Below, piece after piece: positions 20,490 to 60,020 of a stretch of DNA of 64,000 nucleotides. Origin of the DNA: Oehlia diaphana (lineage: Eukaryota > Glomeromycota > Glomeromycetes > Glomerales > Glomeraceae); contig QZLH01000228.1 of assembly GCA_003833135.1 (NCBI GenBank), positions 38,889-102,888 of the forward strand, read 5' to 3'. Positions within the stretch are counted from its first letter, which is position 1; every line of letters begins with the position of its first letter. The translations under genes and the position numbers were made by a program. The notes below the pieces were generated by a model. It was not told the origin of the DNA and did not search any database. It was given only the letters and a program-made list of their open reading frames with translations.

Positions 20490-21964
20490 TTATTGTCTTT
20501 TAATTACTTGGAATACTTCGACATCTTCAACTGTGAAATTTGCCGGAATACCCAATTGTGGATAACAATCCCCATTTACTCCATAAATCCAATTATTAGA
20601 ATTAGAACAATATAAATTCCCCATACTGGGTCCTTGATTATTTTTACAATACACAGCTCCATCTGAAGTACTAACATAACCCAACCTCGCGGCTGTAATA
20701 TTTGTAATGTCATTAAACTTAAATAAAAAACTGTCATCGGTACGCTTGCCACCGCAATTTCCATTCCAATCGAGAGGATTATATCCTCCAATTAATTGCG
20801 TTGAATCTTGGATTTTTGCTATCCAAATTGTGGCACCTTTATCGTCACAATCCCTATGAAAGGATGTTGCATTAAACCCATTATTTAAATTCTGGTTTGA
20901 CTTGTGTATTAATTTAAAATCGTAAGGTAGATTTTCATAATTATATGATGAATTTTCTTTTCTATCGATCCATGAAGCAAATAAAGGTATCACCTTTGAA
21001 TTAAGTAGATTTGAGCCCAATTTCGAAAATCTTGAAGGTAATACGTCGGATTTAGGTCTTCTATCGGGTACTATGTGAAATTCTAAAAGATCATGAATTA
21101 AATCTTTCGGTAATATTTTTTTAAAATTGAATACTTTGTAAAAGAAATCCTCGGATTCAATATCATAAAATCGAATTAAAGGAATAAACCTTTTCAAAGA
21201 TTCCTTAATCTTTTCTCTATCATATTTACTCCATTTTGTTGGATCTTTTTCCACTTTTTGCTCCGCAAAACACCAATTTAATATATTTTCCCAAATATCG
21301 ATTTCACTCATCTTTAAATCTGTACTTTTTAATAATAATTCTAATAAAGGAGCTTTTAAATATAAAAATTTATCAGAATTAAACCAATTTTTCGGTTCTG
21401 TACAGATTCTTTCAACACAAAAATCGCATAATATTCCAAACGCGTTACGTTCGTGAAATACTTCTTCAAGAATTTCACTTGGATTTTGACGTAAATAATC
21501 CACATTATTTTCAATTAAATATTCTTGAATATAAATAGATAGTTGTTGAATATCAAGTTCATCCGCCGCTAATAACAATTTTAACATATCTTCAACTTGT
21601 AAATTCTTTAATTCAATGTTTCCACAATAAATAAATCTATAATTGAATTATTATTATTATTTAATTTACTTTTTAATATAAAATAAATTCCAACGTACTT
21701 TTTACGTTACCTTAAAATAATTTCAAATATATGTGGCATTATGTTTGGTTTTTTTAAAATAAATTTTCCATTTATTTTTTTAGCCCATTTATTAGAAAAT
21801 GCGATACGAAAATATTGAGTTCTAATACATAAAATATTTGAATGAGCGTGTATTTCTTTCATATTATGAGTTTCTCCAGCGTAAATAATAACGTCATATC
21901 CTATTTCTGTTTCAAAAAGTTTTTCGAAATCGTTGGATAACTCAGTCAAAAATTTTGAAGGCAT
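20490..21964 (-). CDS. BTB-BACK-TLDc domain protein (2 exons, 466 aa)
   Basis: Two exons, 21964-21711 and 21636-20490, join in frame across a 74-bp GT-AG intron (21637-21710). The protein begins MPSKFLTELSNDFEKLFETE. A BTB/POZ domain follows (about residues 14-100: YDVIIYAGE, EIHAHSNILCIRTQYFR, then ILRFIYCGNIEL across the splice). A BACK-like helical region comes next (about 105-230: LLLAADELDIQQL, then IDIWENILNWCFAEQ). The C-terminal TLDc domain (about 300-466) has LIGGYNPLDW and ends DVEVFQV. BTB domains of this kind commonly dimerise and bind Cul3 as substrate adaptors. TLDc domains are linked to oxidation resistance and V-ATPase regulation. This architecture is hugely expanded in Rhizophagus. 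All parts appear intact, so it is probably functional, with an unknown substrate. Confidence 0.9.
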
Positions 21965-28971: not shown

Positions 28972-30474
28972 TTAAGAAATCAATTCATAATATACTCCAC
29001 TATTTTTTAACACACTAACGTACTCGCTGTGTTTACATAATTTTTTAAAACTATAAATTTCTAATTTCTTTAAACTCTCTTTACAGCCCTTCAAAAAACT
29101 TTCTAGAGCCATGGCACTAAAAGGCATTTCGATCCAATGACCAATCTTTAGTACCTTGAGAGTACAAGGTAATAATCTTCCCAAATCTTCTAAAGAATCA
29201 TCCCAATCACTATGTTCATTACAAAAAAAACTAAGTACTTCCAATTGTTTACAACCGCACCAAATCGAGAATAAATCTTCGCTATTTAATCTACGTAATT
29301 TTAGGTAAGTCAGTTTTGTACAATGTTCAGATATACAATTAATTAATTTTAGTCTTTTAAGTAATGATTCATTATCATTACTACCATCTCTTATCCAAAA
29401 TATATCCAAATATCTAAGAGATGATGAAGAAGATTTTAATATTGTTAATAAGAAATCTAAATCTTCACCAAATTGACATGTTTCATATGTAAATTCTACC
29501 AAATTTGAACTATGTTTCATTGCATCACATAATAATGAACAATTTAAACATGAAGAAACTTTTAATATTTTTAAATTTTGAGATAATTTAGTTAAAGAAT
29601 TCATAGATTTTTGAGAAATTCTCCCGAAATTAAGGTTTTTAAATGATATATCGCTTAATGTAGAAATAATATGTGATTTTGATATAATTGGTTCATAATA
29701 TATCGGTTCGGTCAGATATTCCAAATCTAATGAACGTAAATTAGTTTGTGAATTTAATAGAATTTCTAATGAATCTCCTAGTTCACTTTGATAACTTTGA
29801 CAAGCATTGTTAACTCTTATATGAGTTATATTTTTTGAAACACGTGATAAAGCAAAAATTAATTCATAAACTTTAAATGGTTCATATGAATTATAGACCA
29901 TAGATGTTGAATTAATTGTAAAAGATTTAATATTATTAAAATTATAATTATTTTCATCTTTTAATAGTGTGATCATATAATCCATCATATTACAGGGTGA
30001 TACCGATAATGATCGTATTTTATTAGATTTACTACATAATAATTTTATTAATTCTTCTAGCATTAAATCACCCTCTTTTGAATATTTTTGTTGAATCTTT
30101 CTAATATCATATTTTTTTCCTTTTGATTCATTAATTAAATCGTATATACATATATCGAATCTAATTGAATCGATAACTAAATCTCTTAAAAATTCGTAAT
30201 AATCGAACATCGGTTTCTTATTAAACATAATTAATTTTATTCCTGATTCTTCTAATCTTTCAATCGATTGTTCATTTAAACATGTTAAATATGTTTTTAA
30301 AATCGATTTGAATTTTTCATGGGACATATTATAAGAAAAAGGATGTTCCCATAATATTTTAACCATTATTCTACACCATAATCTATTTACTAATAGACAT
30401 GAATGTAAATCCGCTCTCGATTCAAGATAACTAAATATTTGAGTCCAAGTTTCGGTTGATAATTGAGATTCCAT
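28972..30474 (-). CDS. F-box/LRR protein (500 aa)
   Basis: A single uninterrupted frame. The N-terminus is an F-box (residues about 4-45: LSTETWTQIFSYLESRADLH, SCLLVNRLWCRIMVKILWEH), the segment that binds Skp1 in SCF ubiquitin ligases. The rest is irregular leucine-rich repeats, for example NLKILKVSSCLNCSLLCDAM, SSLRYLDIFWIRDG, KLTYLKLRRLNSEDLF and TLKVLKIGHWIEMPF, which would recognise substrates. The start is the only ATG before the F-box and lies next to a poly(A/T) tract on its upstream side. Length is typical for the expanded F-box family of arbuscular mycorrhizal fungi. No damage is visible. The substrate is unknown. Confidence 0.9.
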   Translation of the reverse strand: MESQLSTETWTQIFSYLESRADLHSCLLVNRLWCRIMVKILWEHPFSYNMSHEKFKSILKTYLTCLNEQSIERLEESGIKLIMFNKKPMFDYYEFLRDLVIDSIRFDICIYDLINESKGKKYDIRKIQQKYSKEGDLMLEELIKLLCSKSNKIRSLSVSPCNMMDYMITLLKDENNYNFNNIKSFTINSTSMVYNSYEPFKVYELIFALSRVSKNITHIRVNNACQSYQSELGDSLEILLNSQTNLRSLDLEYLTEPIYYEPIISKSHIISTLSDISFKNLNFGRISQKSMNSLTKLSQNLKILKVSSCLNCSLLCDAMKHSSNLVEFTYETCQFGEDLDFLLTILKSSSSSLRYLDIFWIRDGSNDNESLLKRLKLINCISEHCTKLTYLKLRRLNSEDLFSIWCGCKQLEVLSFFCNEHSDWDDSLEDLGRLLPCTLKVLKIGHWIEMPFSAMALESFLKGCKESLKKLEIYSFKKLCKHSEYVSVLKNSGVYYELIS

Positions 30475-30576
30475 ATTTTTTTTTTTTTCTCGTTAACTTT
30501 TTTGAAAGAAAGGAGAGGAAAAAAAAAAAAAAAAAATGATGGGATGGAAATAACGAAAAAAAATGATGAATTTATC

Positions 30577-32991: not shown

Positions 32992-34155
32992 ATGACTTCA
33001 GAACTTTCGTTAGTTACTGTAAAACCGAACCGTATTATTGTTCAAAAATCTAGAAAACCTTCAATCAGTACAGATCGTTTGTTCGAATCTCTTCGGGAGG
33101 AACGATATTCTAGTAATCAGAAAGCTGCAAGAGAATTTATTGAACAAACATTAGGTTCCAAATTATCCGGAAATGACTTGCATGAGATTCTTAAAGACGG
33201 TGTTTTATTATGCAGGTATGTTACCAATAAAATATATATTATTAATGTTGTCCATTAAATAAGTAACATTAGATCAAAAATTTTATTAAATAATTAAATA
33301 TAATTAATATAATAATCATTGTTTTATTTTTATTATTATTCAATTACAATTTTTTAAAGTTTAATGAATAAATTACAACCAGATGTTATACCACAAATTA
33401 GTCGTAAAGATTTGCCTTTTGTAAAGGTATGAATTATTTTTATACGAAAAAAAAAAGAGAAAAAAAATATTTTTTTTGAATTAATTTAATTGATTATTCA
33501 CATTATTTATTTAAGTAAGTTTTATTATTATTATTTTTTTTTTTTTTAATCAAGATGGAAAATATCAGTAATTTTTTGAACGCGGCTCGTAAGGTATATA
33601 TATATATATTTTTTATTACTATTATTTTCTTTTATATACATATATATATATATAATTTCCGTAAACTTTATTAACCCAATTGTATAATCATTTTCTAGTT
33701 TGGGCTACATTCTTCGGATTTGTTTCAAACTGTTGATTTGTTTGAAGGAAAACATATGGAGAGGGTGCGTTTAAAATAAATTATTCATTGTATGTTAATT
33801 CTTTAAAAATATTAAATTCATTATATTAATTATATTAATTCATCCTTTGTTCGAATATAATTATAGGTGGTAGCTACAATATTAGCAATTGAGCGCGCTG
33901 TTGAAGGGAAATATGTTCGTCGTAATTCTGATGTTTCAATTGAGCAACCAATATTTGATAAATTTAAAGATTTAAACATTAAACAAACTGAAACATCAGA
34001 TTCAATTAAAGTGACAAAGTCGGAAAAATTAAATGTGAGCGAGATATCTAATAGTAATATCAACAACAATATTAATAATAACAATAATAATAATGACAAT
34101 AACAATAACAATGACAATAACAATAACAATAACAATAATAACAATTACAATAAAA

Positions 34156-34192
<37 letters not shown>

Positions 34193-36649
34193 CGATGATG
34201 ATGATGATAGCATATTCGTAAAAAATAAGAAAACTCCCACTAAATCAGAAAAAACAGTTGATATCGATCCAAATTCGATAATACATCCTTCAGATGATAA
34301 AAATTCTAACGCATCAGATTTAAAAACATCTGAAGTATCAACAGAAAGTAATGTTATCGATAATACACAATCAAACTCCGGTACGACCCTTCAAAAAAAG
34401 AAACCTAGTTTACGAAAAAGTGTGACAATGGGCCATTTATATGTGGATCAAAAATGTGATGATGAGGAACTTGAATCTGAATTTGTTGAAGATCTTGCAC
34501 CTTTGCCAATTCCTCCAGCTCCAACAAAATCAGAAAGACCTATTAGTCGAAGTAATTCATCGCATAAAAAAACTCATATTCGTTATAAGAGTGATCGTAC
34601 TTCGGAAATATCATTAAACAAAAATGATAAGATACCTGGTTATGCTGATTATAAGAGACGTGAAAGTATGAGCGGAGCATGTTCCGGAGATTTACCTAGA
34701 GAAAAATTGATTTTAAAAAATGATGATGAAATAATTGCGCAATATCAATTAGGTAACTGTATAGGAAAAGGACAATTTGGTGCAGTTTACAGAGCATTAC
34801 ATTTAGGTACAGGGCAGATGGTTGCTGTCAAGAGAATTAAACTTGAGGGGAAAATGTCTGATGAGATTGAACAACTTATGCATGAAGTTGAACTTTTAAA
34901 ATCACTTTCTCATCCAAGTGTCGTCAAATATGAAGCATTTATTATGACTGATGATCATATTAACATTATATTAGAATATGTGGAAAACGGTTCCCTTCTA
35001 CATACACTTAAATCATTTGGAGCTTTTCCAGAGAAATTGGTTGGTTCTTATGTAGTTAAAATATTGGAGGGTTTGGTATACTTACACACAAAGCAAGTTG
35101 TACATTGTGATCTTAAAGCAGCAAATATTCTTACAACAAAAAATGGGAATGTTAAATTATCAGATTTTGGTGTTTCGTTAAATCTTAAAATGATGGAGCA
35201 TGTTAGCACTGAAGTTGCGGGTACACCAAATTGGATGGCACCTGAAGTAATTGAACTTAAAGGAGCGTCAACGGCATCAGATATTTGGTCTTTAGGTTGT
35301 ACTATTATTGAATTATTAACGGGAAAGCCTCCATATTCAGATCTTCTTGCAATGACAGCTCTATTTAGAATAGTAGAAGATGATTGTCCTCCTTTGCCAG
35401 AAAATATGTCTGATGATCTTACAGATTTTCTTAAACAATGCTTTCATAAGAAACCTTCAATGAGGCCAACTGCTCGAGATTTATTTAAACATAATTGGAT
35501 TAGAAGTAATTGGGCGTTGAAAGAATTGAGAACCCAGGAAAGTTTGCCATTTTTACGAAGAATAACATCTGATACTAAACTATCTGAACTTAATCCAAGT
35601 TCACTTAGCAACATTAGTAATATTAATGATACTATCATAGAGAATAGTAATAATGAATCTCTTACAGAACCGGAATCAACAACCCCACCAATTAGTAGAA
35701 AGTCAGCTAGTTCTCCAAACGTTGCTCTTACTCCAACAAAATTATTAGCAGCAACTCCTATGGTCCCGCATCGATTTGTAAAGAACTCTTTTGGCAAACG
35801 TTAGTAAAAAATTTTTTTTATCATATGCATCATTAATTAAAAAAATAATAATTGAAAATTAACTTTCAATCATTTTTAAAATTATTATTTTTTCCCCCTT
35901 CTTTTATTAGCCGTTACATGCAAGATATGTCAAAGTACTGTTAAAAAACACGCTGTCATGTGTGAAGGTATTTAATTTTAATAATTATTTTTTATTAATT
36001 TACCATCAAACATATAATAACTTACATTTTTTTTTTATTCCTAAAAATTAAAAGAATGTAATATGGTATGTCACACAAAATGTTCCCCAAATGCACCATT
36101 TCCATGCACATTGAATAATCACTTAATAAGATATATTCCGCTTGGATTGGTACGTCATTCATACTATATATATTTTCATATTTTTAAATAATTGCTAATC
36201 TTCTTATAACCACCCTTTTTTTCGAAAATCATAAGATTGATGACCCACTTTCAAGGCTAAATAGTATTGGAACATCATCAGATACAGAAGTTCCTACAAT
36301 AACGAGTCCTATAAATAGTTTACCAACAACTTTAACACCATCTTCGCCAAAACGGAGATTTGTTAAAAAAGCCAAAAAAGAAGACTCAATAAATTCACAA
36401 ATATCAATAGCGGATAGTGTAGATTCATCGGCATCGGCAGCGTCAAGTTCAAATATGGCGGATTCGAGTTGGTATGGTAATAATAGACATTTTAGTATAG
36501 ATAATATTAATAACAATAACAACAACGGAGGGGGGAGTGGTAAAGGAAGTGGGAAAGGTAAAGCAAAATCAAAAAAGAAAAATGATATTGGATCAAATGG
36601 TAATGGTAATGGTCATGTTAAAAAAGACGATGATTGTGTGATTATGTAA
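32992..36649 (+). CDS. CH domain-kinase-C1 finger-CaaX protein (8 exons, 964 aa)
   Basis: Exons 32992-33215, 33360-33426, 33555-33593, 33699-33764, 33867-35799, 35911-35967, 36055-36149 and 36236-36649 join in frame with GT-AG introns. Residues ~41-147 are a calponin-type CH domain (LKDGVLLC, NKLQPDVIP, MENISNFLNAARKFGL, DLFE). Residues ~199-246 are poly-Asn then poly-Asp. Residues ~425-677 are a Ste-family kinase, nearest Cdc15/SepH/MAP3K-epsilon: glycine loop GKGQFGAV, Lys454, catalytic loop HCDLKAANIL (545-554), DFG 565-567, GTPNWMAPE ending at 592. The HRD arginine is Cys, so it is a non-RD kinase with all other catalytic residues present. Residues 767-813 fit a C1 zinc finger: H-x12-C-x2-C-x10-C-x2-C-x4-H-x2-C-x7-C. 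The C-terminus is basic, then DDDCVIM, a CaaX box like that of K-Ras4B. Inferred role: a membrane- and cytoskeleton-associated kinase in septation or polarity signalling. The start is the first ATG in frame with the CH domain. Confidence 0.9.
34065..34206 (+). repeat. Coding AAT/AAC then GAT microsatellite
   Basis: Inside the kinase gene's large exon, runs of AAT/AAC (Asn, broken by Asp and Ile) are followed by GAT/GAC repeats giving about 18 Asp in a row. It encodes a disordered acidic linker between the CH and kinase domains. It is a likely site of length polymorphism. Confidence 0.9.
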
Positions 36650-48866: not shown

Positions 48867-50483
48867 CTTCAGATGTACATCACTAACTTTTTTTAAATAT
48901 TTCCTAATAAAGAATTAAAAAATATACAAAGCATTATTATAATTTATGACGTAAAAAATAAATAGATAGAAAATAAAATTGAAGATCATGGGAAATTTAG
49001 TTCCGTTGGTGCCCGCTAAATGTCGTGTCTATCACCTGGACATAATTTCAGTCAGAATTAAAATGGATGTCAATCATGCGAGATGATATAGTAGAGATCT
49101 TATCACAAAGCGTTAAAAAAAATATACAGATTTTAAACATCTTAAATTACAACCAATAAAACAATTTTTTGACGATAATTACATCTTATCGTAATAATTT
49201 TTTTTTTTTAAGAATAGAGAAGAAAAATTACATTCTTCTTAAAATCACAGAATTTCCAAATTTAATAACGCAGATCATTTAAATATACTTTGTATTTAAT
49301 TAATTTTGACTCGTTGATAAAATGTTATACAAAGACAATATTAAGTTGTATCAATAAAAAAATTCTAAATAGAAATCTTAATTAAGAGAAATTCTTCTGG
49401 GTCCTTCTATTATAATCAAAGAAATCGTTAGTCTAATTACCTAATTTAGAAATTAAAAAAAAGATCCATAGATAATAATGTTCTACAAAAAGAGAACGTT
49501 CATGAGATCGTACCAATTTTGATATATTTAACTATTGAACAAAGAATTTGACCCTATTACTTGAACATTTATTATTTTCTCACAATCGAAAATCAAATTC
49601 CAAATTTGTTATTTTATTTCCCATGTATTAAAAACAATTATAATGTAGCACTTAACCTAATAAATCATTGCTTTAAGTCATCAAGCATCAAAAATCTAAA
49701 TCATATGCACATATGCAGTAATTATAATCAGAAATTAAATCTAATCATTTAAAAATTTTTAATTAAAAATTTAACGAATCTAACAAAATGATAATATTAA
49801 AATATCTAGTACGTCTATAAATAGACTACTCTTACAAGGAGGCCATTATGGTTTCATTCTTAATATAGTTAATATTATACTTAAAAATATTGTAACTTGC
49901 AAAAAAAAACAAATATATTAATCAGGAAAAAAAACTTTATTAATTGAACACATGTAAGAATCACAACTCACGATCATTAATTATTAATGTATCTTTGATT
50001 TGAATTCGATATGGCGTTATTTAACCTTAATAAATTATTGTAAAATTATAAAGAACCTTTATGTGTTAAAAGTGGCCTGATTTTTTGAACAATATTGAAA
50101 TATTACTGCGTATGGGTTCAGTTTTTAAATATAAAAAGCAGCTATAATTTACTTTTGATTTGTGAGTCATGTCCAACATAAGAATATTTTTAAGCAATTA
50201 AGACAGTAAGCAGTAAGATAAATTTTTTATTCATTAAGAATCTAAGGTCTGTAAAAATTTAAATCAGTCGAATACATTACTTTTTTTATAAAATAATAAC
50301 AAATAATAAATGTAAATTTTTTAATTATAGAAACCTAAAGATTAATAATAAGAAATTTTTTTTTTAAGAATGTTTACCTAAGATTGAAAATAACGTAACT
50401 CCTCCCTTATAATAAATATAATATTAGGAAAGGTAAATAAATACTGTATTATATAATTAATAAATATATTTTGTCCTTTTTGT
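48867..50483. other. Intergenic, no gene recognised
   Basis: AT-rich, with no convincing frame. The frame at 49561-49752 has no motif and is not called. Confidence 0.4.
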
Positions 50484-51430
<947 letters not shown>

Positions 51431-51612
51431 TTATTTTTCTTAAATTATTTTATTATGTATAATTTTATTGTAAATATTTGTGTTGAACATAGAAAATAAA
51501 ATAATTAATTAAAAATATAATATATAAATAGAAATTCTTTCGACTATTTATAATTCCTTAAACACAATTTTATAAAGCAATCGGTGGACACAGATTTGCG
51601 ATATACGTCGAG

Positions 51613-58400: not shown

Positions 58401-59852
58401 TCAAAAAATATCAATTTCTTCTTCATAAAATTCTTTAATTTCAAAATTCTTAATAACACCCAATTTTTTAAATTTTTTAATAATTTTCATATTTTTTCTA
58501 TTTGCTTCTAAACTATTATAATAACCCTTAATAACAATTAAAGTAAATGGAATTCTATCTTTCCAATCTATAAAAAAATATTTTAAATCTTTTGGAGATA
58601 ATTTTGATTGAGAATTATTAAATATTTTTAATTCACAAAAATTTTTTGGGGAATGTTTTAAAATAGTTTTAAATATTTTCATCTCACTTTTACGTCCCAC
58701 CCACCAAATTTTAATACTTTCTAAATATTGACAACTCATAAATATAGTTTTTAAAATTAATTTATTACTAAGTATTATAGAAAGTTTTTTAAGATTAGGA
58801 CAAAATTTTGCAATATATAAATTTAAATTCTTATTACCTCCATCTATATGTAATTCTTTAAGATTTTTTCCATTTTTTTTTAAAAAATTAATTAAATATT
58901 CAAGTTTAAAACATTGATAAGGAATTCTTAAAATTTGTAATTTTGGAAAAAAAATATTTTGTAATTCTTTAAAATCTTCTAAATTTATTCCTTCAAATCC
59001 AAGTATAATTTCTTGTAAATTTAAAAATGAAGCAATAAATGATAATGATAAATCTTTACAATAATAACTATATATATGTAATGTTGTTAATGTATTTGTT
59101 GATTTTGTTAAAGTAGGAATTATATCTTTCCAATCATTTGTACCATAAAAAAATAATTTTAAATTTTTTAAATTCTTTTGTAAAGAAATCAAATCTTTTA
59201 AATCATTTGAAACGTTCTCTTTGAATTTTATACTAAGTGATTGTAAATTATGACATATTTGAGATAGATCAGATTTAATACTTGAACTACAATGTAATTC
59301 TGTAAGATTTGTTAAACAATTATTTGTTCCAATAAATGATATATTATTAAGTATACTATAATTATCTACACAATAATTTAATCTTCTCAATGATGAAATT
59401 TGTCTCAAAAAATTTTTTATGATCTCTCTTGCTATTAAATTATTTCTATATTTTATACTTAAAGAATTGATAGATGATCCAATAGAATCAATTGATGGTT
59501 CAAGAACATTATCAATGATTCGTCCAATATCTTGAATTGAAAGAACTCTACAAAATCCTGCATAATTAAACATTGGTGTTTTTGAAGTAAATGTTGGAAT
59601 GATTTTTTGTAAAAGTTCTTTTGATTCATTAGGAAGACATGAAATCAATGTATTAAGAATTATTGTTTCATTTTTAAATTGATTTTGTATCGTAAAATAT
59701 TTTAAAAATCTCCAAATATTTCTCCATAAAATTCTAACTGCAACTACACACCAAGAACGATTAACTAATAAACATCCAAATAAAGAGGTTTCACTTTCTT
59801 CTAAATATTCAAAAATTTCATATAAACAATCAGCTGGAAGTTGACAAGCCAT
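58401..59852 (-). CDS. F-box/LRR protein (483 aa)
   Basis: A single frame. The F-box is at the N-terminus (residues about 3-45: QLPADCLYEIFEYLEESETS, LFGCLLVNRSWCVVAVRILW), the Skp1-binding part of an SCF ubiquitin ligase. It is followed by LISCLPNESKELLQK and MFNYAGFCRVLSIQDIGRII, a family-typical linker. Leucine-rich repeats come next (NLTELHCSSSIKSDLSQICH, NLQSLSIKF, NLKNLKLFFYG, NLKELHIDGG, NLKKLSIIL, YLESIKIWWVG). The C-terminus is the usual one for the family (FFIDWKDRIPFTLIVIKGY, KLGVIKNFEIKEF). It is uninterrupted and of normal family length. A long poly(A)/poly(T) tract sits immediately upstream of the ATG, as at the other F-box gene. The substrate is unknown. Confidence 0.92.
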   Translation of the reverse strand: MACQLPADCLYEIFEYLEESETSLFGCLLVNRSWCVVAVRILWRNIWRFLKYFTIQNQFKNETIILNTLISCLPNESKELLQKIIPTFTSKTPMFNYAGFCRVLSIQDIGRIIDNVLEPSIDSIGSSINSLSIKYRNNLIAREIIKNFLRQISSLRRLNYCVDNYSILNNISFIGTNNCLTNLTELHCSSSIKSDLSQICHNLQSLSIKFKENVSNDLKDLISLQKNLKNLKLFFYGTNDWKDIIPTLTKSTNTLTTLHIYSYYCKDLSLSFIASFLNLQEIILGFEGINLEDFKELQNIFFPKLQILRIPYQCFKLEYLINFLKKNGKNLKELHIDGGNKNLNLYIAKFCPNLKKLSIILSNKLILKTIFMSCQYLESIKIWWVGRKSEMKIFKTILKHSPKNFCELKIFNNSQSKLSPKDLKYFFIDWKDRIPFTLIVIKGYYNSLEANRKNMKIIKKFKKLGVIKNFEIKEFYEEEIDIF

Positions 59853-60020
59853 CTTCTTTTTTTATTGATTATTCGGAAAAAAAAAAATATTTTTTTTTTT
59901 TTTTTTTTTTTTTTTGTTTTTAAAAAAAAAAAAATTTTTTTTTTTTTTTTTTTTTGGGAAAAAAAAAAAAATTTTTTTTTTTTTTTTTTTTTTTGAGTTG
60001 TTAAAGAAAAAAAAATTTCT
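59853..60020. repeat. Poly(A)/poly(T) tract upstream of the F-box gene
   Basis: Alternating A and T runs of 12-25 bases from 59877 to 60018. They resemble the tract at 30490-30760, which also lies directly before an F-box start codon. It may include assembly error. Confidence 0.8.

Follow-up and report, generated by a model that had tools for sequence, protein, structure and literature searches.

A predicted CH-kinase-C1 protein with a CaaX end in Oehlia diaphana belongs to a conserved fungal sister family of Cdc15/SepH

A gene of the root-symbiotic fungus Oehlia diaphana encodes a predicted kinase in which a CH domain, a disordered linker, a protein kinase domain, a C1 domain, a disordered tail and a CaaX box follow one another on a single chain. 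Our best reading, to which we give a probability of about 0.6, is that the protein is a farnesylated, membrane-tethered sister of the Cdc15/SepH kinases. On sequence comparison it belongs to a widespread and conserved fungal family and is not a singular fusion, and that family is a sister of Cdc15/SepH, the host's own Cdc15/SepH being a different protein. The gene model, the domains, the HCD catalytic set, the CxxX end of many members and the separateness from SepH are the parts of this reading that can be read from the sequence.

All coordinates are positions in the window, the whole 64,000-nt stretch of DNA that was analysed (assembly GCA_003833135.1, contig QZLH01000228.1, positions 38,889-102,888, forward strand). 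The host genome searched comprised 108.8 Mb in 1,672 contigs. The gene occupies 32992-36649 on the + strand, and its eight exons join without a frame break into an open reading frame of 2895 nt, stop included, that encodes 964 residues. The seven introns are all of GT-AG type and measure 86-144 nt. The exons are as follows.

32992..33215, + strand: exon 1, with the start codon and the beginning of the CH domain (in-frame join, GT-AG; same start as annotated P0002)
33360..33426, + strand: exon 2, CH domain (in-frame join; protein agrees with relatives)
33555..33593, + strand: exon 3, CH domain (in-frame join; protein agrees with relatives)
33699..33764, + strand: exon 4, CH domain (in-frame join; protein agrees with relatives)
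33867..35799, + strand: exon 5, end of the CH domain, low-complexity N/D linker, entire kinase domain and start of the C1 domain (open frame 33867-35804)
35911..35967, + strand: exon 6, C1 domain (in-frame join; C1 whole only once spliced)
36055..36149, + strand: exon 7, end of the C1 domain (in-frame join; protein agrees with relatives)
36236..36649, + strand: exon 8, disordered tail, CaaX box and stop codon (tail mostly with pLDDT <50 in the P0002 model)

A reading of this DNA made earlier from its letters alone (hereafter the sequence-only reading) had proposed eight exons in frame, and four annotated Glomeromycotina proteins agree with it: those of Rhizophagus irregularis (P0002), R. clarus (P0004), Glomus cerebriforme (P0003) and Funneliformis mosseae (P0005), compared as proteins and not exon by exon, end in CVIM and align without a break at the junctions. 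The junctions 35799/35911 and 35967/36055 are exactly those it gave. It had also pointed to a TAG right after exon 5, and reading past this exon unspliced indeed yields SFGKR and then the stop. Among the matches listed, the closest protein is from R. irregularis and is 99% identical in both the CH part and the kinase-C1 part. In P0001 (825 aa), another record from that species, the C1 domain is present, but stretches of the linker and kinase are missing and the end differs. In the kinase linker, a long Asn/Asp repeat (about 34050-34210) differs from its counterpart in R. irregularis P0002, and F. mosseae P0005 has no such repeat.

A Pfam scan and the CVIM end place a CH domain, a Ste kinase, a C1 domain and a CaaX box in one chain, as had been claimed, and at the level of sequence we regard both the eight-exon model and the four modules as confirmed. 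The modules lie at the following positions.

33115..33896, + strand: CH domain, residues 42-142, exons 1-5 (Pfam PF00307, 3.2e-19); best solved relatives calponin/transgelin
34743..35501, + strand: protein kinase domain, residues 425-677 (Pfam PF00069, 2.2e-73); nearest solved kinases MST3, MAP3K2, MST4, STK25 and MST1/2
35103..35111, + strand: catalytic-loop HCD (non-RD) motif, residues 545-547; HCD in 138/140 listed relatives
35769..36113, + strand: C1 domain, residues 767-815, split by two introns (Pfam PF00130, C1_1, 3.3e-8)
36635..36646, + strand: CaaX box CVIM, C-terminal; CxxX end in 102/140 listed relatives and 1/120 listed SepH

The CH, Pkinase and C1_1 matches are all above the Pfam curated cut-offs. 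The catalytic set includes the usual Lys and DFG, with HCD instead of HRD. The Pfam scan found no ARM/HEAT repeats in the Oehlia kinase up to E 0.1, and NCBIfam gave no family above cut-off for P0002, P0087 or P0141. An AlphaFold2 model made on the relative P0002 with 40 sequences is confident, in ten-residue blocks, for CH (pLDDT 89-98) and C1 (91-95); it is mixed for the kinase domain (about 47-95, lowest near the catalytic and activation loops) and mostly below 50 for the linkers and tail. Its pTM of 0.44 leaves domain-domain contacts not interpretable. The matches listed by VIA-align against the PDB were all to the kinase domain.

Elsewhere in the window we found two F-box-like proteins (PF12937) at 28972-30492 (-) and 58401-59861 (-), and an open frame with a TLDc domain (PF07534) at 20490-21647 (-), which is delimited from stop to stop and may have further exons. 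A run of N at 50441-51499 lies between poly-T/poly-A stretches, and the window holds 708 N in total.

Searches for relatives returned 39 proteins with the CH part and, with kinase plus C1, the best 120 of 6,734 matches, together 140 distinct proteins. Using profiles built from family members to count CH and C1, we detected CH in 114 of these listed relatives, C1 in 136, a CxxX end in 102 and all three in 79. The corresponding numbers among 120 listed SepH proteins (best 120 of 2,053) are zero, zero, one and zero. CH was undetectable in 26 of the 140 and C1 in four; the missing modules may in part reflect partial or faulty gene models. The HCD motif also separates the two sets, with none of the 120 listed SepH proteins carrying it; the two exceptions among the relatives are P0031, which has HRD, and P0121, which lacks the pattern. 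The Oehlia kinase has both marks of the family, the HCD loop and the x10 spacing of the C1 domain described below.

Named relatives come from Glomeromycotina, the Mortierella group, Mucoromycotina (Syncephalastrum, Jimgerdemannia), Calcarisporiella, Coemansia and many Basidiomycota (mushrooms, smuts, Phenoliferia). No ascomycete name appears among the 140 listed relatives, a set in which many entries are without an organism name, the kinase-C1 matches are the best 120 of 6,734 and the CH search reaches near kin only; ascomycete names occur in 13 of the 120 listed SepH rows. One relative, P0140, is described as 'sepH OS=Aspergillus niger', but we set this aside as a borrowed description, its sequence resembling Rhizoctonia ones. 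Another, P0050, is filed under the fern Adiantum nelumboides; as all other members with a name are fungal, it probably reflects fungal contamination of the fern assembly. The 570-aa P0031 combines CH, an HRD kinase and a CIIS end, has no C1, and could represent an early-diverging lineage of the family.

The CaaX box proposed by the sequence-only reading is well supported by conservation. The difference between 102/140 listed relatives and 1/120 listed SepH proteins gives a Fisher value of 1.6e-38, with the caveat of non-independent sequences. Of the 102 CxxX ends, 61 finish with Q, 34 with M, three with A, two with S, one with I and one with F, and under the CaaX rule the last residues seen here are mostly of farnesyl type. 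The CGCA end of P0094, counted among the 102, appears to come from a frame error. The sole CxxX end among the 120 listed SepH-family proteins (P0166, CIIS) is in a record labelled partial. The conserved C-terminal motif is a mark of prenylated proteins, and prenylation itself is predicted from it. Candidate genes for beta-type prenyltransferase subunits lie in three places in the genome, and those for alpha-type subunits in three.

The remaining 38 listed relatives have no CxxX end, and some of these are labelled partial. By group, the end is present in 8/12 Coemansia, 4/8 Glomeromycotina, 0/17 Mortierella-group and 0/2 Mucoromycotina proteins among the listed relatives, so the anchor is not universal. 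Eleven Mortierella-group proteins have in common a similar, non-CxxX tail, and the absence in this group is therefore likely real on sequence grounds. A polybasic, K-Ras-like signal ahead of the CaaX box was considered as a family mark and rejected: the mean net charge over 40 residues is +3.1 in 101 CaaX members, hardly above the +2.8 of 120 SepH tails, with +1.4 in earlier stretches of the same 101 members.

The sequence-only reading had called the kinase Cdc15/SepH-type, which stands as a statement of nearest kinship and fails as an identity. Its sense that the gene departs from the textbook kinase is correct. Searching the host genome with the kinase domain, the next match after the Oehlia gene has 56% identity (4.4e-60) and the one after that 33% (8.8e-39). 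The 56% match spans residues 78-253 of the 253-aa query and lies on another contig of the same genome; its open frame has HRD and gives ARM-type matches that stay under the curated cut-off, and the proteins related to it belong to the SepH family (best 120 of 2,053). Among those 120 listed SepH proteins, 117 have HRD and three lack the pattern, and PF24768 is annotated on all but three. We built a maximum-likelihood kinase tree from 36 family rows (35 of the 140 relatives plus the Oehlia kinase) and 30 of the 120 SepH proteins, hand-picked for spread. A version rooted on three other kinases of the genome gave branches of 2.5-6.9 and put one outgroup row inside SepH, and because of this unstable placement the tree was rebuilt unrooted, without those three rows. 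Support for the split between the two families is 100/100, with 100% of the 200 bootstrap trees recovering it, and the Oehlia kinase falls outside the SepH clade of this unrooted tree. P0031 lay outside the 35-row family clade in the outgroup tree; in the unrooted tree it is on the family side, but on a long branch meeting the SepH rows. Twelve species are on both sides: R. irregularis, R. clarus, Glomus cerebriforme, Geosiphon pyriformis, Mortierella alpina, Gryganskiella cystojenkinii, Ramaria rubella, Hysterangium stoloniferum, Rhodofomes roseus, Dichomitus squalens, Astraeus odoratus and Flammula alnicola. The unrooted tree would most simply be read as a duplication that predates the divergence of these lineages. 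Mob proteins are encoded in three places in the host genome.

That the gene is simply the host's mitotic-exit/septation kinase with extra domains is very unlikely in our judgement. Cdc15/SepH is the nearest fungal kinase family, and some relatives bear names such as Protein kinase of the Mitotic Exit Network, sepH or STE/STE11/cdc15, but the genome holds a SepH-family kinase on another contig, the Oehlia kinase has no ARM match and has HRD replaced, and the unrooted tree, with twelve species holding both families, contradicts the idea. We give still less credence to a main transcript that stops at the TAG after exon 5 and so encodes CH and kinase without a complete C1 or CaaX box. The stop does lie directly 3' of exon 5, and P0031 is a relative without C1; set against these, 136 of the 140 listed relatives have C1 and 102 the CxxX end, and the four annotated Glomeromycotina proteins run on to CVIM.

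As the sequence-only reading had stated, the C1 pattern is complete only after splicing. The spacing H-x12-C-x2-C-x10-C-x2-C-x4-H-x2-C-x7-C is exact at residues 767-813, and its chance in a protein of the same composition is about 1e-11 if positions are taken as independent. The middle spacing (C-x2-C-x10-C) is x10 in 129 of 130 pattern-matched listed relatives and x9 in the other. Its lipid targeting, also claimed, finds no support in comparison with typical C1 domains. The loop is three residues shorter than in PKC-delta C1A, at what we take to be the site where diacylglycerol binds in PKC C1 domains, and the full-length PKC-type loop that marks typical diacylglycerol-binding C1 domains is absent. 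As a single sequence, the domain matches PKC-delta C1A (2.3e-5) and RASSF5 (3.6e-5) about equally well, and the family profile is nearest RASSF5 (5.7e-9), the next different protein being PKC-beta (2e-7). The C1 thus appears to be of an atypical short-loop type nearest RASSF5, which makes diacylglycerol binding unlikely. It is accordingly improbable that the domain is a diacylglycerol sensor of the protein kinase C kind, bringing in the kinase as that lipid rises; the C1_1 match above the Pfam cut-off and the best single-sequence match, PKC-delta C1A, speak for such a sensor, and the near-constant x10 spacing, the three residues gone relative to PKC-delta and the RASSF5-leaning profile speak against it. 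Elsewhere in the same genome, a protein at L026 1649-4156 (-) has two C1 matches and, below threshold, one to the cation-channel complex subunit UNC-79.

The family CH profile is nearest transgelin-2 and calponin, followed by Rng2 and other IQGAP-type proteins and Vav. Lone CH domains of calponin/transgelin type are not proof of actin binding, and the actin targeting that had been attributed to this single domain of that type is putative. CH and C1 could also act chiefly as an internal clamp on the kinase, with the CaaX box merely raising local concentration, a reading that we consider doubtful. In autoinhibited Vav, CH and C1 act in this way; the Vav CH is among the CH matches, the two domains sit either side of the kinase on disordered linkers, and the non-RD loop fits control by other means. 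However, no confident domain contact was predicted (pTM 0.44), and P0031 keeps CH without C1.

Under our preferred reading, that of a membrane-tethered Cdc15/SepH sister, the tail cysteine would be farnesylated and the kinase held on membranes. The atypical C1 domain, as in RASSF5, Raf and RACGAP1, would contact protein or acidic lipid and would not sense diacylglycerol, while the calponin-type CH domain may bind a cytoskeletal or signalling partner or restrain the kinase. Since the kinase is non-RD, control would come from release or placement more than from activation-loop phosphorylation. The result would be a membrane-based Cdc15/MST-type signal alongside the ARM-repeat SepH.

Septation and mitotic-exit signalling in fungi is known almost wholly from ascomycetes. 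A wider idea, which we put forward only tentatively, is that the family forms a second, undescribed Cdc15/Hippo-type kinase line in fungi beyond the ascomycete models. A RASSF5-like C1 and a farnesyl anchor fused to an MST-like kinase would make a one-chain Hippo/RASSF-like membrane module, acting at the cell cortex with SepH at spindle poles. The line would have been lost or never kept in Ascomycota, and for that reason never met by yeast and Aspergillus genetics. If mushrooms, smuts and early-diverging fungi do have a second, lipid-anchored Cdc15-like kinase, an annotation as Cdc15, sepH or mitotic exit network may mark the wrong paralog, and a direct membrane branch of the pathway would be testable in model mushrooms. 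The finding matters because databases merge two paralogous kinases.

The sequence-only reading had presented the architecture as unfamiliar. This holds insofar as our literature search, in a scope that excluded supplements and most subscription journals, which may hold one, found no description of a fungal CH-kinase-C1-CaaX family; as a one-off it does not hold, with CH-kinase-C1 proteins in Glomeromycotina, the Mortierella group, Mucoromycotina, Coemansia and Basidiomycota. The main text of the Wolfiporia cocos kinome (PMC5030230) mentions no calponin, CH domain, C1 domain, sepH or cdc15, and the text of the Cryptococcus kinome, supplements aside, no calponin or cdc15 (PMC5052723). The one trace in this search is in a section of a Rhizopus microsporus study, where a table of cytoskeleton genes whose expression differs on contact with endobacteria, the majority upregulated, includes gene 266182 (value 1.19), labelled 'Kinase with actin-binding calponin homology domain'; the same section names a separate cdc15 gene (PMC7482071). 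Matched by this table label and not by sequence, gene 266182 would fit the CH-kinase-C1 family.

Among known systems, the kinases of the mitotic exit and septation networks (Cdc15, SepH and S. pombe Cdc7) form the family nearest to the Oehlia kinase. SepH differs in its HRD loop, its C-terminal ARM-type matches, the absence of CH and C1, and a CxxX end in only one of 120 listed proteins. LKB1 and GRK1/GRK7 are kinases with a CaaX box, and they belong to unrelated families without CH or C1. Raf and KSR resemble the Oehlia kinase in pairing a kinase with a short-loop atypical C1, and both C1 domains are among the matches; they carry C1 before the kinase, with no CH and no CaaX box of their own. 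The nearest solved kinases are of the MST/GCK (Hippo) type, MST1/2 and MST3/4, with MAP3K2 and STK25. To our knowledge MST/GCK kinases have no CH, C1 or CaaX; MST1/2 carry a SARAH domain. RASSF5/Nore1, an adaptor without a kinase domain that binds MST kinases in trans, has the solved C1 nearest to the family profile, and this C1 shares the x10 middle spacing.
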